This document shows, one piece after another, positions 7,940 to 55,134 of a DNA stretch of 64,000 nucleotides; position 1 is the first letter of the stretch, and every line of letters starts with the position of its first letter. The DNA lies in assembly GCF_038051925.1 (NCBI RefSeq), contig NZ_CP150634.1, forward strand, positions 186,001 through 250,000, in the 5' to 3' direction. The position numbers and the translations under genes are program-made. The notes under the pieces were generated by a model. The model was given only the letters and a program-made list of their open reading frames with translations, was not told where the DNA came from and searched no databases. The DNA is from Methylotuvimicrobium sp. KM2. Its GTDB lineage: Bacteria; Pseudomonadota; Gammaproteobacteria; Methylococcales; Methylomonadaceae.

Positions 7940-8596
7940 ATGCATCAAGAATTCTGGCTGGAACGCTGGCAACAAAATCAGATCGGTTTTCATAGTGAAA
8001 GCATCAATCCGCATTTAGAACAATATTGGCCGGCATTGCATATCGAAGCGGGATGCCGGGTCTTCGTGCCGTTGTGCGGAAAGAGTAACGATATGCTGTG
8101 GTTGCTCGCGCAAAACTATCGAGTTATCGGCGTCGAATTGAGTCCCTTGGCGGTCAACGCGTTTTTCACCGAGAACAAGGTACCGGCAACCGCAGGGCGT
8201 AAAGACAAATTCGAAGTGTGGGAAAACGATGATCTATGCATTTATTGCGGCGATTTTTTTCACCTGATAGAGGACGATTTAACGGGGATTGATGCCGTTT
8301 ATGATCGGGCCTCGCTCGTTGCGCTGCCGCCGGAGATGCGCGCGGATTATGCGGCGCATATGAAGCGCTTCCTTAAAACCGGAACGAAAATATTATTGGT
8401 GGCATTCGATTATCCGCAGCAAGAAATGGATGGGCCGCCGTTCAGCGTGCAATGCCAAGAAGTAGAAATACTATATCGAGATTGGTGTCGGATCGATTTG
8501 CTGCACACCGAGGATATATTGTCTAAAGAGCCTCGTTTTCGGGAAAGAGGCTTAAGTCGTTTGCAAGAACAGGTCTATATCTTGACGGTTTTATAA
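7940..8596 (+). CDS. tpm: Thiopurine S-methyltransferase
   Basis: 218 residues, the usual bacterial TPMT length. It starts with the family's typical FWLERWQQNQIGFH and contains the SAM-binding stretch RVFVPLCGKSNDMLWL (about 43-58) and YDRASLVALPPEMR (about 120-133). Bacterial TPMTs methylate thiopurines and also tellurite/selenite species. The last 91 bp of the gene recur nearly unchanged at 16140-16230, next to the intact beta-helix gene. This marks a duplication boundary around the dab-cys module. Confidence 0.93.
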   Translation: MHQEFWLERWQQNQIGFHSESINPHLEQYWPALHIEAGCRVFVPLCGKSNDMLWLLAQNYRVIGVELSPLAVNAFFTENKVPATAGRKDKFEVWENDDLCIYCGDFFHLIEDDLTGIDAVYDRASLVALPPEMRADYAAHMKRFLKTGTKILLVAFDYPQQEMDGPPFSVQCQEVEILYRDWCRIDLLHTEDILSKEPRFRERGLSRLQEQVYILTVL

Positions 8597-8602
8597 TCCA
8601 TC

Positions 8603-8862
8603 GTCAAATGCGTTCTTTCAAAGCGTATGCCTCCCCATTCAAACTTGCCACAGCCGCGTCGGAAAATTCGATATTCTCGACAACGACATTATTACCTTTG
8701 ATGACCCAAATGGCTTTGCCTTCGGCGGATTTTCCAAAAGCCTGAAGATGCGCCCGCCCGCCGGAGCCGCGTAATGTCAAACGATGCTGCCGCCAAACCG
8801 TGACATCGCCCGAATAGATACCGGCATCGATGTTTACTGTATCGCCGTTCTTGGCGATTCTT
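8603..8862 (-). pseudogene. Internal fragment of beta-helix gene (duplicate of 17003-17263)
   Basis: This stretch matches 17003-17263 inside the intact beta-helix gene with only a few substitutions and one missing G (near 8632). It corresponds to about residues 39-125 of that 384-aa protein and has neither start nor 3' end. The join to the tpm tail occurs at the shared word GTCAAATGC, which is also present at both edges of the missing segment in the intact copy (16237-16245 and 17003-17011). A deletion by short-repeat recombination is therefore the simplest origin. Confidence 0.85.
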
Positions 8863-9408
8863 CGTTGGTTTTGAAAATTGTATTCGCATAAATGAAAGCG
8901 ATATGGGCTTGAAATGGCTATGTTCGCGGTAACAATTGGCGCCGCCTCGACATGGACTACATCGGGGCCTCGCGGTCGTGGATTCCTCGTTCCTAGGTTC
9001 TGGATCCTGGCAATTGCTGTCGGGATGGCGATACTGATTTTTTATCCATTAGCGCACACAAGTAATCGAAAAAACAATCGCTTGTGATCTATTTAAAGTA
9101 AGTATTCTCCCAACTCAAATTTAGGATTGCAAAACACTCGTTCGCTCAAGTCCGATTGTGAATATGCATATTTTTAGCGGCACTAGTCAGAGTGTCTTCG
9201 TTAGCGATCATCCAAAAATAATAATGCAGAAATCATATATATAAAAGAACGTTTATTTTAATTATATATATTTGATGAAACTGTTATGGGTTGCTAGTAT
9301 GCCTGCAATTCAATCATTGGGGGTGCTCATGATGCGTTGTATCAGATTTCAAAGTGGTTTATATCCGATCGAAAACTTCCTTTAGATTGCCTACGGAGAT
9401 TTCTTTAA
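8863..9408. other. Intergenic region upstream of dabB
   Basis: No convincing gene. A 57-codon frame (8914-9087) with one hydrophobic segment exists but lacks a ribosome site and recognisable similarity. The part 9220-9290 is very AT rich (TATATATAAAAGAACG... TTATATATATTTG) and is the likely promoter area of the dab-cys operon, but no boxes can be assigned with confidence. Confidence 0.4.
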
Positions 9409-10994
9409 ATGATGACCTTGCTGACTTTTCTTGTAATCGCTGGACCTTTATTGCTGTTTTTACTCGGACTGGCGCCATCAGGGTGGGCCGAACGTAATCC
9501 TTTGAAGTTCGTTCGATTAGCCGAGTCGGTCGCTATAGTGGGTTTAGTTTCTGCAGTACTAGCAACATGGGGTTACTCTGAACACGGACTGATCGAACAA
9601 GGGTTTGCCGGAATCGATATTTACTTCGATGCACTCTCGGCGACGATGTTGATATTGGTTTCCTTCGTGAGCGTCATCGTCATTCGATATTCGCGTAATT
9701 ATTTGGCTGGCGATCCCGGACAGGGACGCTTCATGAAGTGGTTGGCGCTGACGATCGGTGCCGTACTAACGCTGATCGTGTCGGGTAACTTGGTGTTATT
9801 CACGCTGGCCTGGATGGCGACCAGCCTCAAACTCCATCAATTGCTCACTTTTTACTCAGACCGTCCGACAGCACTGATCGTCGCGCGCAAGAAATTCGTG
9901 ATCAGTAGGATCGGCGATCTGTGTCTGATTCTGGCGATGGCGTTAATCTATCAGCGCTTCGGCAGCCTTCGTTTCGGAGAAATTTTCGCGGCGGCCGATA
10001 TCGTATCGACAACTTCTCAGTCTGTCGATGCCGGCAGCGAGTTATCGTGGATCGGCATCTTACTCGTGTTGGGGGCCTTGTTGAAATCCGCACAATTCCC
10101 ATTCCACAGCTGGCTGCCTGAAGTCATGGAGACGCCGACGCCGGTATCGGCATTGATGCACGCAGGCATCATCAACGCCGGCGGTTTTCTGATCGTCCGC
10201 ATGAGCCATGTAATGATACTCGCGCCGTCCGCCTTAGATCTACTTGCAGTCTTCGGAGCAATAACAGCCTTGTTTGGCTCTCTGTGTATGCTGACGCAAA
10301 CCAGTGTCAAAAAGTCGTTGGCCTTCTCGACAGTCGGACAAATGGGCTTCATGATGCTGCAATGCGGTCTGGGAGCCTTCTCATCGGCGATACTGCATAT
10401 CGTCGCGCATTCCTTATACAAAGCGCATGCCTTCCTTTCCAGCGGCAGCATCGTCGATATCGCAAAGGCGTCGTGGGTTCCCTCGTGCGCAAAAAACGCG
10501 ATTCATGGCACTTGTTTAGCGGTTTCGTACTCGCACTGGTGTTGACATTTTCAGTGTCCACGTTGTTCGGCTTCACTTTTTCGAATCACCCGGGTGTCTT
10601 GATTCTGGGCGCCATTCTGCAGATCGCATTGACTTATCTACTCTGGAACGCGATCGAAATTCATATCGGCAAGCGCCTGTTCATACGCGTCGGCATCATT
10701 GCCGGACTCGTATCGGTCGTTTACTTCGCTCTGCAAGCCGCGTTCATCGGGTTATTGCAAAATGCACTGCCGACTGCAGAGCTGGCGAGCGGGCCTTTCG
10801 ACATCGGGCTGTTATTGTTCATATTGATGTCGTTCATGTCGGTGTTATGGCTGCAAGTACGCTTCTCCAGCGGCGATATTGGTTCAGGTTGGCAATCGGC
10901 TTACGTTCATTTTTATAACGGCCTTTATATCAGTAGTTTCGCGAACTTGTTGATTCGCCGCTATTGGCCAGCCAAGTCCCCTCGTCATTCTTGA
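9409..10994 (+). pseudogene. dabB: DabB-type proton-conducting subunit (NuoL/MrpA-like), frameshifted
   Basis: The first frame (9409 to about 10465) encodes the proton-channel core of a NuoL/MrpA-like protein: FPFHSWLPEVMETPTPVSALMHAG, a TSVKKSLAFSTVGQMGFM segment and HSLYKAHAFLSSGS. After SIVDIAK the sequence turns into an unrelated tail and stops at 10545. The natural continuation (GSLVRKKRDSWHLFSGFVLAL and further helices) lies in the frame one base back and ends at 10994. Joined, they give about 527 residues, the usual DabB length, so one base is missing near 10460-10480. It is either a genuine inactivating mutation or a sequencing/assembly error. It precedes dabA by 12 bp. DabB should pass H+ (or Na+) to drive DabA. 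Confidence 0.85.
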
Positions 10995-11006
10995 TCGGAG
11001 CATGCT

Positions 11007-13592
11007 GTGATGAAAAATATAAACGTGTTATCCCAAAGTGCCGATTTCGCCCTGAACGAATCCTTTAACGGGAAACAAGCGGCCGTTCGTCCGCAAATTC
11101 TATCGGCGGCGGCAACCGCGTGCTCTTATGTGCCGCCCCTCTGGCCTTTGAAGCAATTCGTTGCGGTCAATCCATTCCTCGGCTTGTTGCCGCAACATTT
11201 TTCTCAGGCCAATGCCTTCATGAGCCGGGCGGCGCACAAGGATTTACTGATGCCGGCGGATTTTTACGTGAATCAACTCGCCGCCGGGCGTATCGCCGAT
11301 GCCGATCTGGCTAAAGCGTTGGCCCTATTCGACAAGAACGGTGAATTCGGGTCGGTCGATGACGTCAAGGCCCGCTTATGTTCGATGCCGAACGAGGCGC
11401 ACGCCGGCAAGCATGCCATACATACGGTTGCCGATTTGATCGATTCGGAACTGGGGACCGACTGGACTGCATTCGTCATCGATGAAATTTCGAAATGGTG
11501 TGCGGCCTATTTCGACGAGGGTCAATCGTCCTGGCGCATGCCTTGGTCTTCGCTGCCGTTATTCGAAGCTTGGAAGCAAGCCGCGAGCATTGATCGCAAT
11601 GCGGAAATTCACGGCATCAAAGGATTTCGCGACTTCGTTCGCACGTTGCCGGACGAGCCATTGCAGGCAATTGATTTCGTATTGCGGAGTATTCACGTTT
11701 CCGAAGCGAACCTGACGGATTTTTTTCACCGGCAATTGCTGACGGTCGGCGGCTGGAGCGCCTATATTCAATACCGAGTTCGGGAATCCGGCATGCAAGG
11801 TCATGACGACGATACGCTGCTGCATTTGCTTGCGATCAGACTGGTTTGGGACCGGGCTCTCCAAATGAACTACTACGAAAAATTACCGGCCTTGGATAAT
11901 GTCATCGAGATCGAGCCGACCGAACCGGGCGTTTCGGAAAAATTGAGACTGCTGATGCAACAAGCTTATGAAATCGGTATTCAACGAAAGCTTGTCGACA
12001 AATTAACGTCGCCCGACAAGCTTAAAGCGCAACCTCTCCCTAAAGCCATTAAGAACAAAGCGGTTCAAGCCGTTTTCTGTATCGATGTCCGCTCCGAGGT
12101 TTACCGCAGAGCTCTGGAGACCGCATCGCCAAGAATCGAAACCTTCGGCTTTGCAGGCTTTTTCGGCTTCCCAATCGAATATATACGCTTAGGCCATCAA
12201 CACGGTGCCGCGCATTGCCCGGTCTTGTTAACGCCGAAATACCGCATCCGCGAAAGCCTTATCAATGCGACGGTCGAAGAGTTAAGCGATGCTCTTAATA
12301 AGCGTTGGTCCATTAAACGCTTCAATAAAATATGGAAATCGTTCAAGACATCGGCCGTATCATGCTATTCCTATGTCGAAATCGCAGGCTTGGCATTCGG
12401 CGTCAAACTGCTGACCGACAGTTTCGGTCTGACCCGGACCGTCACGAAGCCGGGCACCGAAGGCTTGAACGCAACTTCGGTGCTCCGTCTCGGCCCTCAA
12501 ATCACTCGCCAACGCGGACGCCTGGTAGCGACCGGCAAAGTCGTCGAAACCGGTCTACGTTTGACCGATAAGGTCGAATTAGCCAAAAACGCCTTGCGCG
12601 GCATGGGTTTGACTTCGGATTTCGCTCGACTGGTTTTGCTGTGCGGACATGGCAGTACGACAGTCAACAATCCCTATGCCGCAGGCCTCGATTGCGGAGC
12701 ATGCGGCGGTCATAGCGGCGAAGCGAATGCCCGTGTTGCAGCGGCGATACTCAATGATGTATCGGTCAGAGCGGGCTTGGCAAGCCAAGGCATCGACATT
12801 CCGCCCGATACTTGGTTTCTGGCAGGGCTTCATGACACGACGACCGACGAACTGCGTCTGTTCGATCTCGATTATCTGCCTTCCGGATACGAAAAAGACA
12901 TTGCCTGCCTTCAAGAATGGTTGTCCGACGCATCCGAATTGGCGAGAACCGAACGTTCCGTTCTACTGGGCATTGGCGAGACTCATTCCCAAAAGATCGA
13001 AAAGCATATTACGGCGCGCAGCCGGGATTGGTCGCAGGTGCGTCCGGAATGGGGCCTGGCCGGTAATGCGGCCTTCATCGCCGCACCCAGGGAAAGAACC
13101 CGTCAGGTAAAGCTTAACGGAAGAGTCTTTTTGCATAATTACGATTTCAAACAAGACTCGGATGGTTCTATTTTAGAATTGATCATGACGGCGCCTTTGG
13201 TCGTCGCGAGCTGGATCAACCTGCAGTATTACGCATCGACGGTCGATAACCGTCTGTTCGGCAGCGGCAACAAGGTCCTTCATAACGTGGTCGGCACGAT
13301 CGGCGTACTCGAAGGTAACGGCGGCGATCTACGGGCCGGCTTGCCCTGGCAATCGCTGCATGACGGCTGCAAATTCGTGCACGAACCGGTCCGCTTGAGT
13401 GTCTTCATCGAAGCGCCCAGATCGGCAATAGATTCGGTCATAGTCAAACACGAAACCGTCAGACAATTGACCGATAATCAATGGCTTCATTTGTTCAGTA
13501 TCGAAAACGACGGTGACTGTTACTTCAGATACCTGGGGCAAAACCGTTGGGAACAGGAAAACGAAAGCAGCGAAGAGGTTTGTCATGTTTAA
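11007..13592 (+). CDS. dabA: DabA (DUF2309/UPF0753), inorganic-carbon transporter subunit
   Basis: 861 residues. It carries the beta-carbonic-anhydrase-like zinc site of DabA: C358 and D360 in VFCIDVRSE, H548 in LLCGHGS and C563 in GLDCGACGG. The C-x-D pair and the 15-residue spacing between His and Cys match the arrangement described for Halothiobacillus DabA. Together with DabB it is thought to convert CO2 vectorially into cytosolic bicarbonate using an ion gradient. The start is GTG 11007 or ATG 11010, with GGAG 8-11 bp upstream. Its last 8 bases overlap cysD, so translation is probably coupled. Function here depends on whether the dabB frameshift is real. Confidence 0.92.
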   Translation: MMKNINVLSQSADFALNESFNGKQAAVRPQILSAAATACSYVPPLWPLKQFVAVNPFLGLLPQHFSQANAFMSRAAHKDLLMPADFYVNQLAAGRIADADLAKALALFDKNGEFGSVDDVKARLCSMPNEAHAGKHAIHTVADLIDSELGTDWTAFVIDEISKWCAAYFDEGQSSWRMPWSSLPLFEAWKQAASIDRNAEIHGIKGFRDFVRTLPDEPLQAIDFVLRSIHVSEANLTDFFHRQLLTVGGWSAYIQYRVRESGMQGHDDDTLLHLLAIRLVWDRALQMNYYEKLPALDNVIEIEPTEPGVSEKLRLLMQQAYEIGIQRKLVDKLTSPDKLKAQPLPKAIKNKAVQAVFCIDVRSEVYRRALETASPRIETFGFAGFFGFPIEYIRLGHQHGAAHCPVLLTPKYRIRESLINATVEELSDALNKRWSIKRFNKIWKSFKTSAVSCYSYVEIAGLAFGVKLLTDSFGLTRTVTKPGTEGLNATSVLRLGPQITRQRGRLVATGKVVETGLRLTDKVELAKNALRGMGLTSDFARLVLLCGHGSTTVNNPYAAGLDCGACGGHSGEANARVAAAILNDVSVRAGLASQGIDIPPDTWFLAGLHDTTTDELRLFDLDYLPSGYEKDIACLQEWLSDASELARTERSVLLGIGETHSQKIEKHITARSRDWSQVRPEWGLAGNAAFIAAPRERTRQVKLNGRVFLHNYDFKQDSDGSILELIMTAPLVVASWINLQYYASTVDNRLFGSGNKVLHNVVGTIGVLEGNGGDLRAGLPWQSLHDGCKFVHEPVRLSVFIEAPRSAIDSVIVKHETVRQLTDNQWLHLFSIENDGDCYFRYLGQNRWEQENESSEEVCHV

Positions 13593-14538
13593 ATCGAATC
13601 GATATGAAAGAGCAGACGCAGGATGCGTACAAACGACTTCGGATGCACAGCGCCATTTGGACTGGCTCGAATCGGAAGCGATGTTCATTTTGCGGGAGGT
13701 CGCGGCCGAATTCAAAAACCCCGTCTTGCTTTTCTCCGGCGGCAAGGATTCGGCGGTACTGTTGCATCTGGCTTACAAAGCTTTTCATCCCGAAAAGATC
13801 GGATTCGTATTGCTGCACATCGATACCGGCCATAATTACGGCGAAGTCATCGAATACCGCGACCGCATCGCAGAGCACTACGCCTGTTCGCTGCACGTCC
13901 GCAGCGTCGAGGATTCGATCCGGCGCGGTACCGTGCGTTTGCGTGATCCCCTCGAATCGCGTAACGCCCATCAATCGGTGACGCTGCTCGAAGCGATCGA
14001 AGAACTGGCGTTCGACGTTTGTTTGGGCGGAGCGAGACGCGACGAGGAAAAAGCCAGGGCCAAAGAGCGCATCTTCAGTCTGCGCGACGAATTCGGTCAA
14101 TGGGACCCGAAAAATCAACGCCCGGAACTTTGGATGTTGTTCAATACGCGGATTCGCCCCGGCGAGCACATGAGAGTCTTTCCCCTTTCGAATTGGACCG
14201 AGCTCGATATCTGGCAATATATCGAGCGTGAAGGCGTCGAATTACCGCCGCTCTATTTCGCTCACGACCGCACCGTGGTCCGGCGCGGCGAGATCTTGGC
14301 TCCGGTGACCGAAATCACACCGGCGAAACCGGGTGAGACAACCGAAACGGTACGCTGCCGGTTCAGAACCGTCGGAGACATTTCATGCACCGCGCCGGTC
14401 GAATCGACAGCGGTCACGATAGACGAAATCATCGCCGAAATCCGATCGTGCCGAATCACCGAACGCGGCGCGACGCGGCTCGACGATCGGGCCTCGGAGG
14501 CTGCGATGGAACAACGTAAAAAAGAAGGGTATTTCTGA
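13585..14538 (+). CDS. cysD: Sulfate adenylyltransferase subunit 2
   Basis: 317 residues from ATG 13585, preceded by AGAGG and overlapping the dabA end by 8 bp. The frame is open further upstream, but that part only shadows dabA. PP-loop motif SGGKDS at residues 51-56. Later CLGGARRDEEKARAKER and FPLSNWTELDIWQYI are typical CysD stretches. With CysN it makes adenosine 5'-phosphosulfate from ATP and sulfate, driven by GTP hydrolysis. The stop overlaps the cysN start (TGATG). No kinase or reductase gene of the pathway is nearby. Confidence 0.95.
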   Translation: MFKSNRYERADAGCVQTTSDAQRHLDWLESEAMFILREVAAEFKNPVLLFSGGKDSAVLLHLAYKAFHPEKIGFVLLHIDTGHNYGEVIEYRDRIAEHYACSLHVRSVEDSIRRGTVRLRDPLESRNAHQSVTLLEAIEELAFDVCLGGARRDEEKARAKERIFSLRDEFGQWDPKNQRPELWMLFNTRIRPGEHMRVFPLSNWTELDIWQYIEREGVELPPLYFAHDRTVVRRGEILAPVTEITPAKPGETTETVRCRFRTVGDISCTAPVESTAVTIDEIIAEIRSCRITERGATRLDDRASEAAMEQRKKEGYF

Positions 14539-15860
14539 TGAACGCGCCACTGACTCAAAACCCGACTGCATCGGCAAGCGGCAACACCGCGAAAAACTCA
14601 CTACGTTTCATTACCGCGGGCAGCGTCGACGACGGCAAGAGCTCGCTGATCGGACGGCTGCTTTACGACACGCAAAGCATTCATAGCGACCAAATAACAG
14701 CGATACAACAAACATCCGCTAAGCGCGGTTTGAGCGAACTGGATTTATCGTTGCTGACCGACGGTCTGCAAGCCGAACGCGAACAAGGCATCACGATCGA
14801 TATCGCTTACCGTTATTTCAACACCGAACAGCGTAAATTCATCATCGGCGATGCGCCTGGACACGAGCAATATACGCGGAACATGGTCACGGCGGCATCG
14901 ACGGCGGACCTAGCGATATTGTTGGTCGACGCGCGTAAAGGCGTCGTGACGCAAACGCGTCGTCACACATATCTGGCTCATCTGTTGGGCGTCAACGAGA
15001 TCGTGCTGGCCGTCAATAAAATGGATCTGGTCGACTGGCGTCAAGGCGTCTATGAGGCGATTCGGGACGATTATCTGGCATTCGCCGCCTCCCTTGGCAT
15101 CGAGCAAATTTGCACACTGCCGATCTGCGCATTGAAAGGCGACAACATCGTGCAGGCTAGCCGATCGATGAATTGGTACGATGGGCCGACATTGATCGAC
15201 TATTTGAATCGTGTTTCCGCACACCGCGATAGGTCAGAAAATCCGTTGCGTTTTCCGGTGCAGCGGGTCGCACGAGTGAAGCTCGGAAACGGTTCATCAA
15301 TAGAAAACGATGACTTCAACACAGAGTTTCGCGGTTATCAAGGCACATTGGCATCAGGAATGCTGGTAGTTGGCGATGAAGTACTAGCATTGCCGTCCGG
15401 ACTCGCGGCAAAAATAAAATCGGTTAAGCTGGCCAACCAATCTCTACCGCACGCGACTCCCGATCTCTCTATTGTCGTTGAATTAGATAGAGAGATCGAT
15501 ATATCGCGAGGAGACATGCTGGTCGCTAAGAACGATCTGCCGGAGACGGTGCGTGAAATTCATGCCGATATTTGCTGGCTTTCCGAAGAACCGCTGAACA
15601 CTCGGCGCAAATATCTTATCAAGCATACGACGCGCACGGTCCGTTGTCTGTTTTCAGGCTTGCAATATCGAGTGGATGTGAATACGTTGCAAAAACATCT
15701 AAAACCGAGCGACATCGTGATGAATGATATCGTCAGAGTCGAACTGAAGCTACAACAACCGCTGTTTGTCGATCATTATGCGGAAAACCGCGTTACCGGC
15801 AGTTTCATTATCATCGACGAAGCCACTCATGCTACTGTCGCGGCAGGCGTGATCGCCTAA
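14538..15860 (+). CDS. cysN: Sulfate adenylyltransferase subunit 1 (GTPase)
   Basis: 440 residues, slightly short for CysN (usually about 470) and without a fused APS kinase domain. GTPase motifs: P-loop GSVDDGKS (28-35), switch-II DAPGHE (105-110), NKMD (160-163). The EF-Tu-like beta-barrel domains follow and end in FIIIDEATHATVAAGVI. It forms the regulatory partner of CysD. Start and cysD stop overlap in TGATG. It is the last gene of the dabB-dabA-cysD-cysN unit; relics of other genes begin 40 bp downstream. Confidence 0.95.
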   Translation: MNAPLTQNPTASASGNTAKNSLRFITAGSVDDGKSSLIGRLLYDTQSIHSDQITAIQQTSAKRGLSELDLSLLTDGLQAEREQGITIDIAYRYFNTEQRKFIIGDAPGHEQYTRNMVTAASTADLAILLVDARKGVVTQTRRHTYLAHLLGVNEIVLAVNKMDLVDWRQGVYEAIRDDYLAFAASLGIEQICTLPICALKGDNIVQASRSMNWYDGPTLIDYLNRVSAHRDRSENPLRFPVQRVARVKLGNGSSIENDDFNTEFRGYQGTLASGMLVVGDEVLALPSGLAAKIKSVKLANQSLPHATPDLSIVVELDREIDISRGDMLVAKNDLPETVREIHADICWLSEEPLNTRRKYLIKHTTRTVRCLFSGLQYRVDVNTLQKHLKPSDIVMNDIVRVELKLQQPLFVDHYAENRVTGSFIIIDEATHATVAAGVIA

Positions 15861-15900
15861 AGGGACGAGAGTATTTTGGAAGTATTCCGTTCAGTTTTAA

Positions 15901-16020
15901 TTAGCTCATCAATAGTGCTAGTAATCCTGTAGGTAGTTCTATTGTCTCTAGTTGATTATGTTTAGTAATTTTGACGCGAGTGTCTTGCTTTAGTGACCAG
16001 CCATCTTTAAGTCGGTTCTT
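15901..16020 (-). pseudogene. 39-codon 3' tail of an unidentified gene
   Basis: A minus-strand frame runs open from 16020 to TAA at 15901-15903 and reads KNRLKDGWSLKQDTRVKITK followed by HNQLETIELPTGLLALLMS. Composition and a clean stop suggest the C-terminus of a real protein. There is an in-frame stop just upstream and no start. I cannot name the family; a transposase tail is possible. It lies in the scar between cysN and the duplicated tpm tail. Confidence 0.35.
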
Positions 16021-16023
16021 TTA

Positions 16024-16119
16024 GGAGTTTTATTAGACGATTTGGCCTATACCGCAGGTAGCGACGGTTTTCGCGATCTTCGTGTTAAGGATCGAAACGG
16101 CGCCGGGTTGAATTATTAA
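16024..16119 (+). pseudogene. Relic of a DUF3999-type gene
   Basis: The frame reads GVLLDDLAYTAGSDGFRDLR then VKDRNGAG. It aligns with GVTLDESIYNAAGDDYRDLR and IKDRNGVE in the intact DUF3999 protein at 25472-26839. Nucleotides are similar but not identical, so it stems from a diverged paralogue. Only about 27 codons survive. The frame runs into TTGAATTATTAAT, a word also present at about 22790 next to an ISL3 relic. Confidence 0.6.
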
Positions 16120-16139
16120 TTAAACCTGAATCCTTTTTG

Positions 16140-16230
16140 CACCGAGGATATATTGTCTAAAGAGCCTCGTTTTCGGGAAAGAGGCTTAAGTCGTTTGCAA
16201 GAACAGGTCTATGTCTTGACGGTTCTATAA
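16140..16230 (+). pseudogene. Duplicated 3' end of tpm
   Basis: Nearly identical to 8506-8596 (about two differences), including the TAA stop. Only the last about 30 codons are present. It directly precedes the 3' end of the intact beta-helix gene, so the ancestral order tpm > < beta-helix is preserved here. Confidence 0.85.
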
Positions 16231-17379
16231 TCCACCGTCAAATGCAAAAGCGCCGATATCGATCGGGTCTCGTTTCCGCCGCGCTTCTCGATTCAGCGGA
16301 TGGCGATATTGAAATTCCGGATGAAGCGAAACGCCGCTAGAACTCATGCCCGGAGCGGTGCCTCTTCTTATCGCCGGAGAGCCGGGCAAAAGACGATAAT
16401 CGAAAGCGTCACGATCGACAAAACCGCCATCCTTAATCGTCAGGTTGTGGCGTTGCCGCCCGGAGCCTTGCAACGGAATAACGTTATCGACCAGTAAATT
16501 ATTGATCGAGACCACTTCGACGTTTGCGTGATTATGAATGAACACGCCGCGGCTGCGATCGTTGACGAAAGTGTTGTTCACCGCATAGAGATTTTGATCT
16601 GAATTGCCCCGGCTGTATTCTCCGGCATAGGCAATGGCCGTCCAATTATCAGAGCGGGGGCTTTGCCGCAGCACATTGCCGATAATGAAAGCATCGCCGC
16701 CGTTCGGTAGGTCGATCAAATAACTCGACGCGCCGTGCTCGTCGGAAATGCGGTTGTAAAGCAGATAATTTTCCCGCGCCCGCGATTTAACGTTATGACC
16801 GGTTACGGCATCATGGATGTAACAATTACGCAGCGTAAAGCGTCGAATAGCGCCGATATAAATGTTGTGCCCCAACTTGCCGTGACGACGAAAATCGACC
16901 GTATTGTCATTGAACTCGGAACCTTCGATCAAAATATCGCTAAGCGGATTCGAGCCGGTCAAAATCCCCATTTGGTTATCATGAAAATGCGCATTGCGAA
17001 CCGTCAAATGCGTTCCTTCAAAGCGTATGCCTGCCCCATTCAAACTCGCCACAGCCGCGCCGGAAAATTCGATATTCTCGACAACGACATTATTACCTTT
17101 GATGACCCAAATGGCTTTGCCTTCGGCGGATTTTCCAAAAGCCTGAAGATGCGCCCGCCCGCCGGAGCTGCGTAATGTCAAACGATGCTGCCGCCAAACC
17201 GTGACATCGCCCGAATAGATGCCGGCATCGATGTTTACGGTATCTCCGTTCTTGGCGATTCTTGCCGCATCGCTGGGTTGCTTCAAGATTCGCTCGGGGC
17301 CGACCGACAACGTGGCGCTCACGCTTTTGGCTGGGCAACTGAGCAGTAAGGCAGAGATGGCCGGAATAAATATTTTCAT
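16225..17379 (-). CDS. Secreted right-handed beta-helix repeat protein
   Basis: 384 residues with a signal peptide (MKIFIPAISALLLSC..., cleavage near SVSA). The body is a series of parallel-beta-helix rungs with recurring NxxxxN/VENIEF/LRNCYIHD patterns, as in pectate-lyase-like/PbH1 and NosD-type proteins. No catalytic triad can be assigned. It may act on, or bind, polysaccharide at the cell surface (inference). The end overlaps the duplicated tpm tail. A near-identical internal fragment lies at 8603-8862. The aquaporin gene starts divergently 324 bp away. Confidence 0.75.
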   Translation of the reverse strand: MKIFIPAISALLLSCPAKSVSATLSVGPERILKQPSDAARIAKNGDTVNIDAGIYSGDVTVWRQHRLTLRSSGGRAHLQAFGKSAEGKAIWVIKGNNVVVENIEFSGAAVASLNGAGIRFEGTHLTVRNAHFHDNQMGILTGSNPLSDILIEGSEFNDNTVDFRRHGKLGHNIYIGAIRRFTLRNCYIHDAVTGHNVKSRARENYLLYNRISDEHGASSYLIDLPNGGDAFIIGNVLRQSPRSDNWTAIAYAGEYSRGNSDQNLYAVNNTFVNDRSRGVFIHNHANVEVVSINNLLVDNVIPLQGSGRQRHNLTIKDGGFVDRDAFDYRLLPGSPAIRRGTAPGMSSSGVSLHPEFQYRHPLNREARRKRDPIDIGAFAFDGGL

Positions 17380-19956: not shown

Positions 19957-20123
19957 GGTTCGGTGACTCGCTTGACAAGACACCGTGAACCCAGCACCTA
20001 AATTATTCGAGATAGTTATCATAGCCAAAGGGCTATGGAATTTAGGTGCTGGGTGAATACGTCCGTGTAGGCTTGACGGCGGCTATCCCTGCCTCCGACA
20101 CCTGCCAATCGAGCCACCGAACC
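19957..20123. repeat. MITE family 2 (GGTTCGG ends) inserted in the PEP-CTERM gene
   Basis: The ends GGTTCGGTGACTCGCTTGAC and CAATCGAGCCACCGAACC are imperfect inverted repeats. The centre contains an inner inverted repeat (CAGCACCTAAATT ... ATTTAGGTGCTG) that also appears inside MITE family 1 copies at 46431-46621 and 54813-55034. A longer family-2 relative lies at 41173-41555. Confidence 0.7.
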
Positions 20124-22747: not shown

Positions 22748-22946
22748 TTGGGAGGAAAAGGGGTCGAAAAAAGGGGAAAAAAGGGGTCAGGTTGAATTAT
22801 TAATTTATCTTAACCCCATTTACTATTTTTACTGATCCCTTTTAAACCTTCAGGATGTTAACATCATTCTTGTTTGATCCAATGTCGTTAACGGCTATGC
22901 TTTAGCGATTAACCCATTTTAATGTCGGTTTATCGGGAGCTTTAGC

Positions 22947-25475
22947 GTGGACGATTTTTTTGGATTTATCGTACTGGTTTTGATACTGGTGCCGGGAGCT
23001 ATGCTGCTCATGCTTGTGGTGCTGATGACGCGGCAAAATCGTTACCGGGATGAAATCGGCCGGTCGCTCGATCAATTGGCGGATAAGCTGGACGAGCAGG
23101 GCGTTAGGCTCGATAAATTGCTGCAGCGTTTTGCCGAGCCGGTCGGGCGAGTACCGCAAGCCGATCGTATCGAGCCGGAGGTGGCAGCAGTGCCGGCCCC
23201 CGAGTCTTTCGGTTCGAGGCTTACCGAAACCGTTCAGGCAACAGATGAACCGGAGGCGGTAATAATCTCCGAGCCGGCTCCGGAAACGGCTTCAATAGAT
23301 CCTTGGCGGGGTAGCGTTCGGCAAGCTACAGAACCCAGCCGCTTCGAACTGGCCGCGAAGCAAATCCTCCGGGAAATCTGGAATTGGATCATCGTCGGCG
23401 AAGGGAATCGGCCGCAGGGCGTGTCGGTCGAGTATGCGGTTGCCAGTAATTGGTTGTTGCGCATCGGCATTATCATTTTGGTAACCGGCATCGGCTTTTT
23501 TCTTAAATATTCTATCGATAACGAATTGCTCGGCGAACATGCGCGAGTCGGTCTGGCGGTTTTGGCCGGTGTTGGGATGATCGTTGGGGGCGTGCGTCTG
23601 GCCTTCGGTAAGTATCATTTGTTCAGCCAAGGTCTACTCGGCGGTGGAATCGCAGTACTGTATTTCAGCGTGTTCGCCGCGTTCAGTTTTTACCGGTTAG
23701 TGGAGATGTATCCGGCATTCGCGTTGATGATCTTGGTGACCTCGTGTGCCGCGACGTTGGCGATTCGCTTGAACTCTGTGCTGGTAGCGATTTTCGCGAT
23801 CGTCGGCGGTTATTGTACGCCGATTCTGCTGTCTACCGGCGAGGTCAATTTTGTCGGATTGTTTAGTTACATGCTGTTGCTGGGTATCGGTCTGCTTGCG
23901 ATCAACGGCTATAAGCAGTGGCATTTACTGAACTTTTTGTGCTTTTTCTTCAATTATTTGATGTTCTTCAGTGCATTGAATCAATACGAGACGGCTTATT
24001 TTCCGCAAGTCATGCCGTTTCTGATCGCATTTTTCGTTTTGTTTTCGACGATGGTCTTTTTGTTCTGCCTGGTCCGCCGGGTCAAGTCGACGCTATTGGA
24101 TGTGTTGGCCTTGATCGTCAATGTCGCGATTTTTTTTCTGACCGCGCGTTATCTCATTCTCGATGCCTACGGCAATCTCGAAGTGGCCTGGGTTACGATT
24201 GCGCTGGCGGCTTTTTATATCGGCCATGTCTATTACTGCCTGGCGCGCGATGTGCGAGATCGGGAGTTGATGCTCGGTTTTATAGGACTTGCGGCGTTTT
24301 TTGTCACGATTACCTTGCCGCTGCTGCTCTCCGATCAATGGATTACCGTCAGTTGGTCGGTGCAGGCCCTGATTATGCTGTGGATGGCGGGCAAGATGCG
24401 TACCGCGTTTTTGCGGCAGGTCGCATTTTTGCTGTATTTCATCGTGTTGGGACGCTTTTGTTTCATCGACTTGCCCGGTCAATACGGCGCGCCTATCGGG
24501 CGTGAGCAAGTCTTCGGCGATTTCTTGCGCGGCTTGCTGGAGCGGTTAATCAGCTTCGGTATTCCGATCGGCTCGCTGGCTTTGGCCTTCAAGCTGATTG
24601 AAAAACCGGCACCGGCACCGGCACCGGCATCGGCGCTGACTTGCCGCGAAGAAAATGATGTGCCGCTGTGGTTAAAGGATAACCGGTCGATGCAAGCCTT
24701 CGTGATAATGGCTGTCGCTCTGCTTTTTATCGTGCTGCAATTGGAGTTATACCGCAGTTTCGGCTATTTATATCCGCCGCTGCAATTGCCGGTGCTGACG
24801 CTGGTGTGGTTGGCCTTGGGTTTGCTGTTGCTGCTGAGGTATTTATCCGAATCCGGCGCCTGGTTGCTGAATGGCTTGAAGCTATGCTTGGCCGCGGTTT
24901 TGGCTAAACTGCTGCTGTTCGATTTGCCGTCGTGGGGATTGGCTCTGGATTATGTCGCCACCGACGACAAGGTATGGACTATGCGTTACGGCGGGGCTTA
25001 TTCGTTTCAATCGGCGTTGATGCGGTTGTTGGATTTTGCCGCGATCATCGGTTTTTTCGCGTTTGCATTCCGGCGGCTGTCGGCGAACGGAGAAACCGGG
25101 GATATTCGGCGATGGTCGGTCGGTGCGGCGCTGGTGCTGTTGTTCGTGTTTCTGAGTCTGGAAATCAATTCGGCGCTGCATCAATACATTCCCGGTTTGC
25201 GATCCGGGGGCGTGTCGATTCTCTGGTCGCTGTTTGCACTGACGCTGGTCATTACCGGTATCAAGCGTCGTATTTCGGTGTTCCGGCTGATTGGCTTGGC
25301 TTTGTTCGCGCTGGTGGCTTGGAAAGTCTTTTTTATCGATCTGGCCCGGCTGGAGCAGATTTACCGAATCATTGCCTTTATCGTATTGGGCCTGCTGGCC
25401 TTGAGCGGCGCGTTTGCCTATATGCGCTATCAGCAAGCTTTCACCGCTAATACTTCGGACGAGAAAACGACATGA
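22947..25475 (+). CDS. DUF2339 multi-pass membrane protein
   Basis: 842 residues. GTG start at 22947 with GGGAG 9-13 bp upstream. An N-terminal membrane helix is followed by a coiled region and a Pro/Glu-rich linker (about 40-125), then some 20 or more hydrophobic helices. The pattern EYAVASNWLLRIGIIILVTG and NELLGEHARVGLAVLAGVG is characteristic of DUF2339. An (AP)n stretch is at about 552-560. Function is unknown. It overlaps the next gene by 4 bp (ATGA), and DUF2339-DUF3999 pairs occur together, suggesting a joint envelope function. Confidence 0.85.
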   Translation: MDDFFGFIVLVLILVPGAMLLMLVVLMTRQNRYRDEIGRSLDQLADKLDEQGVRLDKLLQRFAEPVGRVPQADRIEPEVAAVPAPESFGSRLTETVQATDEPEAVIISEPAPETASIDPWRGSVRQATEPSRFELAAKQILREIWNWIIVGEGNRPQGVSVEYAVASNWLLRIGIIILVTGIGFFLKYSIDNELLGEHARVGLAVLAGVGMIVGGVRLAFGKYHLFSQGLLGGGIAVLYFSVFAAFSFYRLVEMYPAFALMILVTSCAATLAIRLNSVLVAIFAIVGGYCTPILLSTGEVNFVGLFSYMLLLGIGLLAINGYKQWHLLNFLCFFFNYLMFFSALNQYETAYFPQVMPFLIAFFVLFSTMVFLFCLVRRVKSTLLDVLALIVNVAIFFLTARYLILDAYGNLEVAWVTIALAAFYIGHVYYCLARDVRDRELMLGFIGLAAFFVTITLPLLLSDQWITVSWSVQALIMLWMAGKMRTAFLRQVAFLLYFIVLGRFCFIDLPGQYGAPIGREQVFGDFLRGLLERLISFGIPIGSLALAFKLIEKPAPAPAPASALTCREENDVPLWLKDNRSMQAFVIMAVALLFIVLQLELYRSFGYLYPPLQLPVLTLVWLALGLLLLLRYLSESGAWLLNGLKLCLAAVLAKLLLFDLPSWGLALDYVATDDKVWTMRYGGAYSFQSALMRLLDFAAIIGFFAFAFRRLSANGETGDIRRWSVGAALVLLFVFLSLEINSALHQYIPGLRSGGVSILWSLFALTLVITGIKRRISVFRLIGLALFALVAWKVFFIDLARLEQIYRIIAFIVLGLLALSGAFAYMRYQQAFTANTSDEKTT

Positions 25476-26839
25476 TCGCAAAAATTTTGTTATTCGCTGG
25501 ACTATTGAGCGCCACGGCATGGGCATCCGATCTCACGGATTACCGGTTCAGCCGTTCGGTTATTTGGCAGGATGGCGACCAACAAAGCCTGCTCGGCGTG
25601 ACTTTGGACGAATCGATCTATAACGCAGCCGGCGACGATTATCGAGACCTTCGCATCAAGGATCGAAACGGCGTCGAAATACCTTATTTAGTGCAAAAAA
25701 TCGCCGGCAGTAAGACAGTCGTCAGTCGGCATGCCATCGACAGTGCAATCGAGTCCTTCAACAAAATCGGCGAAGAGGGTATTATCGTTACGGCTAAATT
25801 GGACAAGGGCGCAGTCAACGCCGACGGTTTGACGATCGTGACCCAGCAGCGGGATTTCGAATACGCGCTACAAATTCACGGCTCCGCCGACGGCCTCGAG
25901 TGGCACCTGTTGGTCGAGAATGCGCCGATCTACGATTATTCGCGTTATATCGCGGTCGATCAGCGGGACGTCGAATTACCGGCCAATCAGTATCGGCATT
26001 TTAAAATTACCGTGGACAAGGCGGCTCAAACTCATCTTGCCAATCTGACGGAACTGACTCGATTGCTGGAAGACGGCGAAGAGCTGCAACGATCTGAACG
26101 GCGCGGTCTGCATTATGAAGCGTTGCGTATCGAGCGCATCGATTTTTGGCATAAACAGACCGAAACCGTACCGGAAGACGCAAAATCGTTCGATTATGCG
26201 GTCGAGGATTTTACGGTCCGACAAGACGACGAGCTTAAAGCGACAGTGATCGACATCCAAACGCGGCGCCAACCGTTGACCGGTTTTGCGGTTAAAACCG
26301 GTACGCTCAATTTCAGCCGTAGCGCGGAAGTGCAAATTTCTCTGCAACACGGCATCGAATGCCGCTGGCAAACGATCGGCAGCGCCATACTGGAAGCGTT
26401 GAATTTTCAGGATATCAGCCACGAGCAAAGCCAAATCGGTTTTTCCGAACAGCGTCGGGCGAATTACCGCATCGTGATTCATAATCAAGACAGTCCGCCA
26501 CTGGGTATTACCGGTGTCAACGGTGTTGGCAACGGTTATCGTTTGCTATTACTTAGCGAGCCCGGTAACCGCTATCGACTCTACTATGGGAATGACAAGG
26601 CCGAATCGGCCCGTTATGATACCGCGCCGATTCGGGAGTTGTTGCGCCGAGGTTACCCGGGCATCGCCGCCGAACTGGACGCGGAAGTCGCCTCCGAAGC
26701 GATTGATCTGCCGCCGGATATGAGCGAGTTATTGAACAGCCGATGGTTTCTAGTCGGAGCGATAGGCATCATGTTGGCGGTACTAGCCTGGAGCTTGTAC
26801 CGTGTTGGTAAACGGGTCGGCGAGTTGCCGAAATCATAA
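25472..26839 (+). CDS. DUF3999 family periplasmic/membrane protein
   Basis: 455 residues with a signal peptide (MIAKILLFAGLLSATAWA), a large extracytoplasmic part rich in beta strands, and one C-terminal membrane helix (about 423-443, FLVGAIGIMLAVLAWSLY). The DUF3999 landmark YNAAGDDYRDLRIKDRNGVE lies near residues 50-69. Start overlaps the DUF2339 stop (ATGA), so they are translationally coupled. A short relic of a paralogue is at 16024-16119. Confidence 0.85.
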   Translation: MIAKILLFAGLLSATAWASDLTDYRFSRSVIWQDGDQQSLLGVTLDESIYNAAGDDYRDLRIKDRNGVEIPYLVQKIAGSKTVVSRHAIDSAIESFNKIGEEGIIVTAKLDKGAVNADGLTIVTQQRDFEYALQIHGSADGLEWHLLVENAPIYDYSRYIAVDQRDVELPANQYRHFKITVDKAAQTHLANLTELTRLLEDGEELQRSERRGLHYEALRIERIDFWHKQTETVPEDAKSFDYAVEDFTVRQDDELKATVIDIQTRRQPLTGFAVKTGTLNFSRSAEVQISLQHGIECRWQTIGSAILEALNFQDISHEQSQIGFSEQRRANYRIVIHNQDSPPLGITGVNGVGNGYRLLLLSEPGNRYRLYYGNDKAESARYDTAPIRELLRRGYPGIAAELDAEVASEAIDLPPDMSELLNSRWFLVGAIGIMLAVLAWSLYRVGKRVGELPKS

Positions 26840-30355: not shown

Positions 30356-30402
30356 AAAAAAGGGGTCAGGATGAAGTTATAATTCAACCTGACCCCTTTT
30401 TT
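30356..30402. repeat. GGGGTCAGG hairpin repeat
   Basis: AAAAAAGGGGTCAGG (30356-30370) pairs perfectly with 30388-30402. Ends resemble those at 35675-35748 and a half copy near 22783. With T tract it could also act as a terminator. Confidence 0.65.
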
Positions 30403-30420
30403 ACCTTTTTTACGCTAATA

Positions 30421-30561
30421 GCTTTACGCCGTGTCGCGATGCCTTGTATTTTGCCTCCTCCAACGCTATTCGCGCAGACTCCGGCAAAACACCCGGAGCT
30501 ACGGCTATCGGGGTCTAAAAATCTTCACTTCGCTAACGCTCCGTTTCCACGATTTTCAGCG
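30421..30561 (+). repeat. 141-bp direct repeat, left copy
   Basis: Near-identical to 31953-32093 (a handful of substitutions, no gaps). The pair brackets the two lipoprotein genes. It contains a GCTTTACGCCGTGTCGCGAT start and ends at GATTTTCAGCG. Confidence 0.8.
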
Positions 30562-30811
30562 TTGGCTTAAGGTATTATTTTGGCTTATTGACCACGACAA
30601 GCTAATGGGTGATCCCAGGGCAAACGCATTAAAATAAATGCCATATCAATATGTTATGACTATTCAACCTAAGCTTGCAGAATATTTTATTTGTTAGTTT
30701 TTTATTTTGTGGAAATAAAGGCTGCCGCTATGAAAATACTACGCATCATAACCATTTATTTTATATGTAGTTTTAATGCGTTTACCCTGGTGATCCTGAT
30801 ATCCCTTTTGA

Positions 30812-31232: not shown

Positions 31233-31745
31233 TCATTCTCCTTGAAAATAGTCACTGACACTTTGTGAACTCAAAATTTCATTCGCGGCTTGTTGCAATG
31301 CCATCTCACAGGCGGTTTTAAAATTCCAGTTTGTGGCGCTCGTCTGGTAACCGTAAAATTTGCCGTCACCTAACTTTTGGTTATAGTCAATGACACAATG
31401 AATCCTCGCTGTGGGCTGTAAAGAAACTCTGCCTACCTGAACTTCAATCACCAAGTCAGAATCAGTAACAACCGAATAGCCTTTATCTTTTAATGCCGAC
31501 TCTATTTTATCAGCAAGTACTTTTGTAAATTCGTCTTCATTAACAATAATACTGGCACCATGCAAAGGCTGCTCTCTTTTTTTTGTGCCGATGAGATGGG
31601 CTTTAACTGCAATGGGTTTAGAAATTTTAATATATGGAGCTACAACCTCATCCATATCAAAATCACTGGGTTCTAGATACGTTGTGCAAGATGTGCAGAA
31701 AACCATGATGCACAATATAGTGATTGGTAGTGTTAAATTTTTCAT
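31233..31745 (-). CDS. Lipoprotein (170 aa)
   Basis: Start at ATG 31745: the following LPITILCIMVFCTSC is a lipoprotein signal with a Cys after TS. The frame is open further upstream but without signal-peptide logic. The mature part has IESALKDKGYSVVTDSDLVI and a C-terminal helix with ACEMALQQAANEIL; the KGYxV stretch is shared with the downstream lipoprotein, suggesting old paralogues. Function unknown. Stop and next start are 1 bp apart. Confidence 0.7.
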   Translation of the reverse strand: MKNLTLPITILCIMVFCTSCTTYLEPSDFDMDEVVAPYIKISKPIAVKAHLIGTKKREQPLHGASIIVNEDEFTKVLADKIESALKDKGYSVVTDSDLVIEVQVGRVSLQPTARIHCVIDYNQKLGDGKFYGYQTSATNWNFKTACEMALQQAANEILSSQSVSDYFQGE

Positions 31746-31952
31746 CTTTGTTGTTAATACTAAAGTTTTGGAAAAAAGGATCATCAAGCGCGCCAAGATT
31801 TTTCGCGAAAGCTGAAATGGGGTCCGTCCGATTTCAGCAGCGAAAAATGACTTGGCGATTATTGCCTTCGGCGGCCCCGATTCGCCCTGCGTCCGTGCCA
31901 CTACGCCACATCATCGTATACTCGATGCGGCTCCGTAGCACTCCCACAAATG

Positions 31953-32093
31953 GCTTTACGCCGTGTCGCGATGCCTTGTATTTTGCCTCCGCCTACGCTA
32001 TTCGCGCAGACTCCGGCAAAACACCCGGCGCTACGGCTATCGGGGACTAAAAATCTTCACTTCGCTAACGCTCCGTTTCCACGATTTTCAGCG
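31953..32093 (+). repeat. 141-bp direct repeat, right copy
   Basis: Counterpart of 30421-30561. The interval 31746-32368 otherwise holds no recognisable gene. Confidence 0.8.
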
Positions 32094-32368
32094 ACGGAAA
32101 AAGGAGGTGTTGCATTTCTCATTTTGCTATTTTTAGCGTGCAGATCTTTGGAGTATAGCTCACACCAAAATAATGATCGAATATACATTGCTAGGTCGCG
32201 AATCAAAAAAAGGTCGATCACCGGATTAGTCTATTGATTGCCAACTCGACAATTGAATTCCGATGGGATACTCTAGGTTCGCCCCTGATTACAGCGCAAG
32301 CTATAAAGCCCCGCTTTCAATGCTCGTTGATAGGCTTTAAATACAACGTCATGTGTAAGGAATTATTG

Positions 32369-40951: not shown

Positions 40952-41172
40952 CGAGAGTTTATTGAGGTTAAAAAAAATAGGGCAGGCCAACTAAAAATAA
41001 CCGATTTTTTTGTTTTTGACTTTCTGCTTTTGCTATTTGGTTAATTAAAGAAAGATCAAAAAGGCTCATTTTCCCACGGATTACAGTAAATGTAAGTATT
41101 CAATCCTCCTCTTTTTCATAGAGGGGAATGAATGCTTAGGATTTGGGCATAAATAACGCCCCTATTTTTGGA

Positions 41173-41555
41173 GGGTTCGGTAACTCGATTGGCAGGTGTC
41201 GGCGGCAGGGCAGATTTTTGCTCCTGCAAAATCTGCATTCACGCCATCCATGGCGTTTGCAGATTTTTGCTCCTCGGCAACTGCTGAGTTACAGGGATGT
41301 AATGAATGCAGAAAATGCAGGAGCATTTTTCTGCCCTGCATCGCCAAAGCGCCTATTGTTGGTGCTCTAATACACGCCATCCATGGCGTAATGCAAAATC
41401 TGCATTCATGCCATCTTTGGAAATTAGGCACAGCCTTCAAGTCAAGGATGTATTCACCCAGTACCTAAATAAGCCATGGTAGTGAATCATTGCCAATGAC
41501 CTATAGAATTTAGGTGTTGTGTTCATGGCGTCTTGCCAGGCGAGTTGCCGAACCC
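41173..41555. repeat. Composite MITE family 2 copy (383 bp)
   Basis: Ends GGGTTCGGTAACTCGATTGG and CCAGGCGAGTTGCCGAACCC are imperfect inverted repeats matching the element at 19957-20123. Inside are repeated words (CAGATTTTTGCTCCT twice; CGCCATCCATGGCGT twice) and the inner CACCTAAAT hairpin. The interval 40952-41691 holds no gene. Confidence 0.65.
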
Positions 41556-46180: not shown

Positions 46181-46430
46181 AGCTTGGGTAATCTGTTCAG
46201 GAAGCTCTAGCTTCCCGATAATCAAGGAAGATAGAAGGAGTAAGTCGGGGTTGATTTAGAATGTGCGGAGGTTGTGTCGGTCTCAGGATGCTGGAGCTTC
46301 CGGAGGGGCTTTCCCAAGCTGGTGCCTTGGGAAATAGCGTGAAAATATTCCGTTCTAAGTATCTTGTTGATACCGTAAACGACCGTTCAGCTTACAACAG
46401 ATCTTAGGCGAACGGTCTTTTATACCTATC

Positions 46431-46621
46431 GGAGATCAAAATTCGGCACCGGGGTGCCTGTCAAAGGACGCCGTGACCCCAGCACCTAAATTCCATAGGT
46501 CTTTGGCAATGATTCAAAATCATGGCTTATTTAGGTGCTGGGTGAATACGTCCATGTAGGCTTTGCCTGGCAACCCGGTGCCTTCTTAGGCACTGCCGAA
46601 ATTTAAAGTGCGAAAGGTATA
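46431..46621. repeat. MITE family 1, composite copy (191 bp)
   Basis: Ends TATACCTATCGGAGATC and GTGCGAAAGGTATA on TA dinucleotides. The centre carries the CAGCACCTAAATT hairpin element also found in MITE family 2, so it is an element inside an element. Confidence 0.7.
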
Positions 46622-47018: not shown

Positions 47019-47876
47019 TCAAGCCAAATCGGTTTCTCGGTGGATTAGCCGATGCGAATGACTGTAGACGACATGTCTGTCTTCCCGGGCGAAGCCTATC
47101 AGAGTTAGTCCCGTTTCCTCGGCTAATCGTATCGCAAGTCCGGTCGGTGCGGAAATCGCGGCCAACAAGCCAATGCCGGCCACGGCGGTTTTTTGGACCA
47201 TTTCGAAACTGGCTCGGCTCGTGACGATCACAAAACCGTCGGCAGGATTTCGGGCCGTCCTTAACAATGCCCCGATCAATTTATCGAGCGCATTATGCCG
47301 GCCGACATCCTCGCGAATGGTTTGAATGCCCTGAAACGGCAAGACCCATGCCGCAGCATGGACCGCGCCAGTCAAACGGTTCAATTTTTGATGTTGCTTG
47401 ATATCGTTCAATGCTGACAACAGCTCGGTTGCTTTCACCTTGAGTTCAGCAGTAACCGGTGCTGGATGGCGCACGGCTTGCTGTAGCGTACTCGAACCGC
47501 ACAGCCCGCAACCGGTCCGCCCGGTAAGATTGCGGCCTTTGTCCGCCAAGCAAACGAAGCGCTCCTCGGGAATCTTGACACGCACTTCGATGCCGTCCTT
47601 GCGGTTGTAAACGCGCGTAGACAGGATCTCGGCTGGATGATTGACAATTCCCTCGGTGATGCTGAAGCCCAGCGCGAAATCCTCGAGATCCGTCGGCGTC
47701 GCGAGCATCACGACATGCGGTACGCCGTTATAGACTAAAGATACCGGCACCTCCTCGGCGATGTAATCTTGTTGAATGGTCGGATGCCCGTCTTTCCAGC
47801 GTTCCACCGGGCTTTGCCGATAACTCGGCCAGCCCAGCTCCCACGCGGTCGACTCGGAATCCGCCAAATCAAGCAT
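47019..47876 (-). CDS. fdhD: Formate dehydrogenase accessory sulfurtransferase FdhD/FdsC
   Basis: 285 residues. The conserved C-x-x-C loop GRTGCGLCGSS has C123 and C126, used to pass sulfur from IscS-type desulfurase to the molybdenum cofactor. Other family blocks: FALGFSITEGIV, AAWVLPFQG, REDVGRHNALDKLIGALL, SRASFEMVQKTA. Start overlaps the fdsA stop by 8 bp, so the two are coupled. Confidence 0.94.
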   Translation of the reverse strand: MLDLADSESTAWELGWPSYRQSPVERWKDGHPTIQQDYIAEEVPVSLVYNGVPHVVMLATPTDLEDFALGFSITEGIVNHPAEILSTRVYNRKDGIEVRVKIPEERFVCLADKGRNLTGRTGCGLCGSSTLQQAVRHPAPVTAELKVKATELLSALNDIKQHQKLNRLTGAVHAAAWVLPFQGIQTIREDVGRHNALDKLIGALLRTARNPADGFVIVTSRASFEMVQKTAVAGIGLLAAISAPTGLAIRLAEETGLTLIGFAREDRHVVYSHSHRLIHRETDLA

Positions 47877-50724: not shown

Positions 50725-50743
50725 ATCAGTACCTCCGGTGGGG

Positions 50744-54812: not shown

Positions 54813-55034
54813 CATCGTAGATGAAAATTCGGCCTCGGGGTGCCCGTTAAAGGACGCCGTAAACCCAGCACCTAAATTCCATAGCCTATTGGCCATGATT
54901 GATTACATAGATAATTTAGGTGCTGGGTAAATACGTCCATGTAGGCTCTATGCCAGCTCCATGCTGGCAAAGTCTTTATCGAGCACCCCGAGGCCTCCTC
55001 CGGCACTGCCGAAATTTGAAGTACGAAAGGTATA
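54813..55034. repeat. MITE family 1, remainder of the interrupted copy
   Basis: Starts CATCGTAGATGAAAATTCGG and ends GTACGAAAGGTATA. It contains the CAGCACCTAAATT inner element. With 53342-53348 it forms one MITE of about 229 bp inserted at TA in the TonB-receptor gene. Confidence 0.75.
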
Positions 55035-55134
55035 TGTCGGTGCCGACAACATTCTCGATGCGGACTATCAGGAAACCTATGCGTTACCGCAAGCCGGGCG
55101 CTTCGTCTATACCGGCGCGCGGTTGAGTTTTTAA
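55035..55134 (+). pseudogene. TonB-dependent receptor relic, final part
   Basis: Reads VGADNILDADYQETYALPQA then GRFVYTGARLSF and stops at TAA 55132-55134, the typical last strand with terminal Phe of a TonB-dependent receptor. Removing 53341-55034 joins it in frame with 53333-53340 (AAIY|VGADN). Confidence 0.8.

Follow-up and report, generated by a model that had tools for sequence, protein, structure and literature searches.

How did a block of four genes, dabB-dabA-cysD-cysN, come to lie between two direct copies of a fragment of the tpm/beta-helix locus in Methylotuvimicrobium sp. KM2, and what does the arrangement imply for the fate of the block? The question was approached within a window of 64,000 nucleotides (positions 186,001 to 250,000 of contig NZ_CP150634.1, assembly GCF_038051925.1) taken from a genome of 5.0 Mb that is assembled as one contig; all coordinates below are those of the window. 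The comparison set comprised five other genomes of the genus (G001-G005), the KM2 genome itself being G000. The interest of the locus is that a whole operon appears to have been inserted together with a flanking duplication that can be dated relative to sister species, and that relatives show the site unbroken while scar and operon can both be seen to have decayed since.

Structure of the flanking repeat

Self-comparison of the window yields two pairs of direct repeats around the dab-cys genes, one of 106 nt and one of 230 nt (8633-8862 and 17034-17263), each 97 % identical; on alignment, the larger pair reaches further left, to 8602 and 17002, past a 1-bp indel. Both pairs belong to a single repeat, here called R, whose right copy is unbroken (16140-17263) and whose left copy (8506-8862) lacks 766 bp. 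In the right copy the missing segment is bounded by 12-bp direct repeats, ACCGTCAAATGC, at 16234 and 17000, and its loss is well explained as a deletion between them. The two blocks recognized by the initial annotation overlap at 8603-8611 because they are one repeat with a 766-bp gap in its left copy. That annotation also described the repeats as equal; they are real and in direct orientation, but they are only about 97 % alike, the left and right copies differing by 10 substitutions over 8506-8862 and a 1-bp indel in addition to the 766-bp deletion. When the segment 8300-8900 was searched against the whole genome, three places were found at E <= 0.001, namely the query and, to its right, the two blocks of the other copy.

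R is 1.12 kb long and consists of the last 91 bp of tpm and most of the beta-helix gene. The left side of the locus accordingly carries a whole tpm and a scrap of the beta-helix gene and the right side an entire beta-helix gene and a scrap of tpm, as had been proposed. The stretch between the copies, 8863-16139, measures 7,277 bp, in agreement with the earlier figure of about 7.3 kb for the bracketed dabB-dabA-cysD-cysN segment, and the whole has the form R-X-R, with a chromosomal segment repeated directly on either side of heterologous DNA (Table 1).

Table 1. Features of the dab-cys locus and its flanks, in window coordinates
Feature	Position	Strand	Evidence or remark
tpm, thiopurine methyltransferase, intact, 218 aa	7940..8596	+	PF05724, 1.1e-74
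R left copy, block 1 (last 91 bp of tpm and junction)	8506..8611	.	97 % to 16140-16245
Scar of 766-bp deletion between 12-bp direct repeats	8602..8611	.	Segment retained in all four sister loci
R left copy, block 2 (beta-helix scrap)	8603..8862	-	97 % to 17003-17263
Left end of insert	8863..9144	.	Single match in own genome
lysR-like scrap (N-terminal part, divergent gene)	9145..9220	-	82 % DNA match inside lysR of L154
dabB, frameshifted	9409..10994	+	ORFs 9409-10545 and 10284-10994; PF00361 on first ORF
dabA, intact, 861 aa	11007..13592	+	PF10070, 8.2e-276
cysD, start codon uncertain, ORF overlaps end of dabA	13513..14538	+	PF01507, 2e-45
cysN, 440 aa	14538..15860	+	PF00009, 3.1e-42
DUF3999-gene-like scrap	16033..16105	+	77 % to 25604-25676 inside ORF 25472-26839
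REP-like palindrome, right part only, usual left arm missing	16106..16138	.	Within 2 bp of right R
R right copy, block 1 (3' scrap of tpm)	16140..16245	.	Self-comparison
beta-helix gene, intact, 384 aa	16225..17379	-	PF13229, 6.2e-9; 88-90 % to genes of G002-G005
R right copy, block 2	17003..17263	-	Self-comparison and genome search

The same site in sister genomes

In four of the five other genomes of the genus (G002, G003, G004 and G005), tpm and the convergent beta-helix gene are adjacent and uninterrupted at a single locus, and no tandem R-R without an insert occurs at any of these four loci. The fifth genome, G001, gave no beta-helix match; its assembly is 79 % complete and is in 500 contigs. 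The site was thus probably without an insert ancestrally, to judge from the sister loci, and the earlier proposal of a convergent tpm/beta-helix ancestor is borne out by the four loci that could be read. The suggested comparison with sisters lacking dab-cys gives the same answer, in that G002-G004 have no dabA match and an unbroken tpm/beta-helix locus. The beta-helix gene of G002 has a frame break that leaves two overlapping pieces (L063, 6820-8054).

Age of the duplication

Over the 230-bp block, the two copies of R are identical at 224 of 230 positions, as against 197-203 of 230 to the four sisters; that is, they are 97 % identical to each other and 86-88 % to any sister. The 106-bp block hardly discriminates (103/106 between the copies, 98-102/106 to sisters), and the dating rests on the larger block because the smaller one barely separates copies from sisters. 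Since the copies are closer to each other over the 230-bp block than to any sister, the duplication is, on that block and among the genomes compared, specific to this lineage and later than its split from G002-G005. When the 10 substitutions were polarized, four proved to be clean left-only changes and two clean right-only changes, and four were ambiguous. The copies diverge by 2.8 %, compared with a dS of 0.10-0.22 to G005 for seven flanking genes, so that their divergence is about one-quarter to one-eighth of the flanking dS, barring gene conversion, which could make the copies seem younger than they are. The view that the event was recent holds in the sense that it is younger than the split from the sisters; this is a relative age only, and 2.8 % divergence with two indels is not that of an extremely recent event. 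The insertion could even predate this species, as in G001 the block lacks flanks and there is no beta-helix match. It is in G001 that the DNA just outside dabB and cysN finds its best match: 90 % upstream of dabB, compared with only 69 % in G005, and 84 % downstream of cysN, where G005 gives no match.

Genes and condition of the insert

Between the copies of R there are 14 ORFs of at least 80 aa, of which five represent dabB (two ORFs), dabA, cysD and cysN; the other nine overlap the dab-cys genes in other frames and match no Pfam family. DabA (PF10070) is accompanied by its proton-channel partner DabB (PF00361), as in a DAB inorganic carbon transporter, a kind of complex reported to work by vectorial CO2 hydration (PMC13144422). 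However, the two subunits are not both intact, dabB being split in this assembly. In alignment, it has one base fewer than its counterparts in G001 and G005 at about position 10481, and in G005 the gene is one ORF of 528 aa. The site does not lie in a homopolymer run; in a single assembly, a sequencing error is nevertheless possible. The reading frames of dabA, cysD and cysN are open. The frameshift, the reduction of lysR to a scrap and the different position of the block in a sister genome (see below) are observations beyond those of the initial annotation.

Relative to G005, dN/dS for dabB-dabA-cysD-cysN is 0.14-0.26 (dabB being represented by its first 357 codons, and cysD being inflated if its start is wrong). 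These values are like those of tpm, the M74 peptidase gene and the beta-helix gene (0.14-0.23) and above those of the aquaporin, P-type ATPase, DsbD-like and acyltransferase genes (0.03-0.07). Selection on the dab-cys genes thus appears to have been maintained for most of the time since the split from G005, and a real break in dabB would therefore be young.

Scraps lie at both ends of the insert. The left end, 8863-9144, has no match in the five other genomes of the genus, and a search for its source among 151 genomes of the family, with four candidates per genome scored, returned only matches of 29-71 nt at 73-90 % in five genomes. The adjoining lysR-like scrap also has shorter matches in L155-L160; only about 76 bp resemble lysR. 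With three LysR proteins as tblastn queries, no match came up in the window at E 0.01, and one of them matched in G005 over 32 residues. The occurrence of lysR-like, DUF3999-like and REP-like scraps at the ends suggests illegitimate joining. Other REP-like palindromes lie at 22777-22821 and 30356-30400.

Distribution of the dab-cys genes

Within the genus, dabA of this type (at least 93 % identity) is found in G000, G001 and G005, and no dabA match at E <= 0.001 was obtained in G002, G003 or G004; the block is therefore absent from some members of the genus and variable in position among others. In G005, it is not on the contig that carries the beta-helix gene; there, ABC-transporter (pstB-like) and phoU genes come first, then a 445-aa gene whose function is uncertain, and then the block. 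In the genome studied here, the distance from phoU to a downstream gene is about 16-17 kb (L100-L101); the two are close together in G002, G003, G004 and G005. The gap is apparently a large insertion at the locus in whose vicinity G005 holds dab-cys. KM2 has a second dabA, 30 % identical, at 4.23 Mb, and a distant cysN (approximately 50 % identity) occurs elsewhere in all six genomes of the genus, so that the block does not carry the sole cysN.

Gene by gene, the block is 93-94 % identical to that of G005 and 90-94 % to that of G001, which gives no near-identical donor among the genomes compared and speaks against recent transfer from a sampled relative. The dS of the dab-cys genes to G005 is 0.16-0.27, compared with 0.10-0.22 for the seven flanking genes. 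A conflict between the histories of module and core might be read from the pstB-phoU stretch, which is 98 % identical to G005 and 86 % to G001, set against the better match of the DNA outside dabB and cysN to G001. Core identities vary by locus, however, the stretch 47019-52297 being 93 % identical to G005 and 88-92 % over the parts found in G001, and no such conflict is claimed.

In wider samples, a cysD lies within the 1.5-kb flank of dabA at 4 of 30 loci from 41 relatives (the window, G001, G005 and G015) and, at E <= 1e-120, within the dabA flank at 2 of 30 loci from 369 genomes of the class (the window and L127), some of the dabA flanks in both counts being cut by contig ends. A divergent lysR together with dabB-dabA-cysD-cysN was seen in six genomes from two other genera of the family (L154 in one; L155-L158 and G015 in the other), the dabA match of L154 being in two separated pieces; a seventh genome (L159), from yet another genus, carries a partial lysR with cysD and cysN and no dab match in 14 kb. 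These are not estimates of frequency, as six of the seven stretches were chosen for matching the window's upstream DNA and that of G015 matches it too. Gene order and homologous genes in these clusters are as in the window; however, they keep lysR and dabB, whereas the window has a lysR scrap and a frameshifted dabB. Among plasmids, a protein search found distant dabA in 123 records, all below 60 % identity. In the three neighbourhoods viewed, a LysR gene is always upstream of dab; cysD directly follows dabA in Mesorhizobium (L137) and comes three genes after it in Methylocystis (L136), and in Thiodictyon no cysD was present in the stretch viewed, the gene tables being incomplete. No paper on the pairing of dab (CO2-uptake) and cys (sulfate-activation) genes was found in the open-access literature, subscription journals being outside the scope of that search.

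Origin of the arrangement

The reading given most weight, at a probability of roughly 60 %, is that the block was inserted additively in this lineage, with 1.12 kb of the target being duplicated. The dab-cys block, already present in the genus, would have been added to the tpm/beta-helix locus, leaving R on both sides as a small merodiploid; the left, non-coding R would then have been shortened by 766 bp through slippage or annealing at the 12-bp repeats, and both copies would afterwards have drifted to 97 % identity. Duplication and insertion would on this account be one event, the ends of the insert would have been joined illegitimately and R would have been copied from the same species. Neither a donor molecule nor an intermediate came to light. 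Precedent in another species comes from Streptococcus pneumoniae, for which a published account (PMC3784515) describes merodiploids with tandem duplications arising by natural transformation. There, DNA taken up leads to two direct copies of chromosomal sequence, an arrangement like the present one and in principle unstable through recombination. However, those duplications are approximately 100 to 900 kb and require repeats already in the chromosome, whereas R is 1.12 kb, ends inside two genes and has no known earlier repeat. Homology-facilitated illegitimate recombination likewise joins foreign DNA illegitimately at one end, but usually deletes a similar length of DNA instead of duplicating any (PMC3240628).

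Much of this evidence would also fit other routes. In Campbell-type integration, a circle enters by a single crossover and direct copies of the shared segment come to flank it as R-X-R. Were a circle bearing R and dab-cys to have come from a conspecific cell and crossed over within R, the product would be identical in structure to that seen, and the common lineage of the two R copies over the 230-bp block would be expected; in Escherichia coli, circularized DNA is reported to need RecA to integrate by a single crossover (PMC3240628). What makes this a possible but rather unlikely origin is the circle that it demands, one in which R, ending inside two genes, had been joined beforehand to the block at both its ends. 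No such circle was seen; when 72,556 plasmids were searched at DNA level with the segment 9100-15980, no record had one place covering 80 % of it, and the insert, unlike Campbell integrants, has no recognized vector or replicon gene and ends in scraps. A two-step history, with a tandem R-R formed first and dab-cys inserted later at the junction of the copies, predicts the same structure, yet the insertion would have had to hit precisely the junction newly created, and the sister loci without any R-R leave it quite improbable. A broader conception, in which lysR-dabB-dabA-cysD-cysN is a metabolic cassette roaming among methanotrophs, without a recombinase of its own, and travels from site to site and strain to strain through the host's homologous recombination on captured neighbour DNA, leaving as a circle and duplicating its flanks on reinsertion, is speculative and improbable.

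Carriage by a composite transposon or an integrase-type island would suit a block that is patchily distributed and stands elsewhere in G005. Target-site duplications and att sites are, however, much shorter than the 1.12 kb of R. The repeats on either side derive from tpm and the beta-helix gene and are not insertion sequences with a transposase, and none of the 14 ORFs scanned, those of at least 80 aa in 8863-16139 (12 others are of 60-79 aa), has an integrase or transposase Pfam match, so that a mobile element of either type is very improbable. Least credible is an artefact of assembly. The arrangement is known from a single assembly, in which the dabB frameshift may itself be a sequencing error, but the copies differ too much for assembly duplication, given their substitutions, indel and deletion, each of the two end stretches of the insert has one full-length match in the genome, and the genome is one contig.

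Consequences for the locus

Additive insertion would leave the block exposed to loss, as the initial annotation foresaw, in that RecA-type recombination across R could excise it. A crossover in the 230-bp blocks would take out 8.4 kb and yield a beta-helix gene 766 bp too short, whereas one in the 106-bp blocks would take out 7.6 kb and bring back the ancestral layout. Because the left scrap has the internal 766-bp deletion, only the latter would return an intact beta-helix gene. Neither excision product, nor any amplification, was seen at this locus. Should the break in dabB be real, losing the block would probably cost little, given that another cysN is present. The locus has the appearance of an ordinary insertion scar that arose once and is already breaking down.

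Other repeats occur in the window. A direct pair, 30417-30572 and 31949-32104 (94 % identity, spacing 1532), surrounds the ORF at 31233-31901. Dispersed repeats of approximately 40-200 bp lie at 1475-1521, 20039-20084, 41170-41532, 46418-46621 and 54813-55041, and stretches related to them are present in many copies in all six genomes of the genus.
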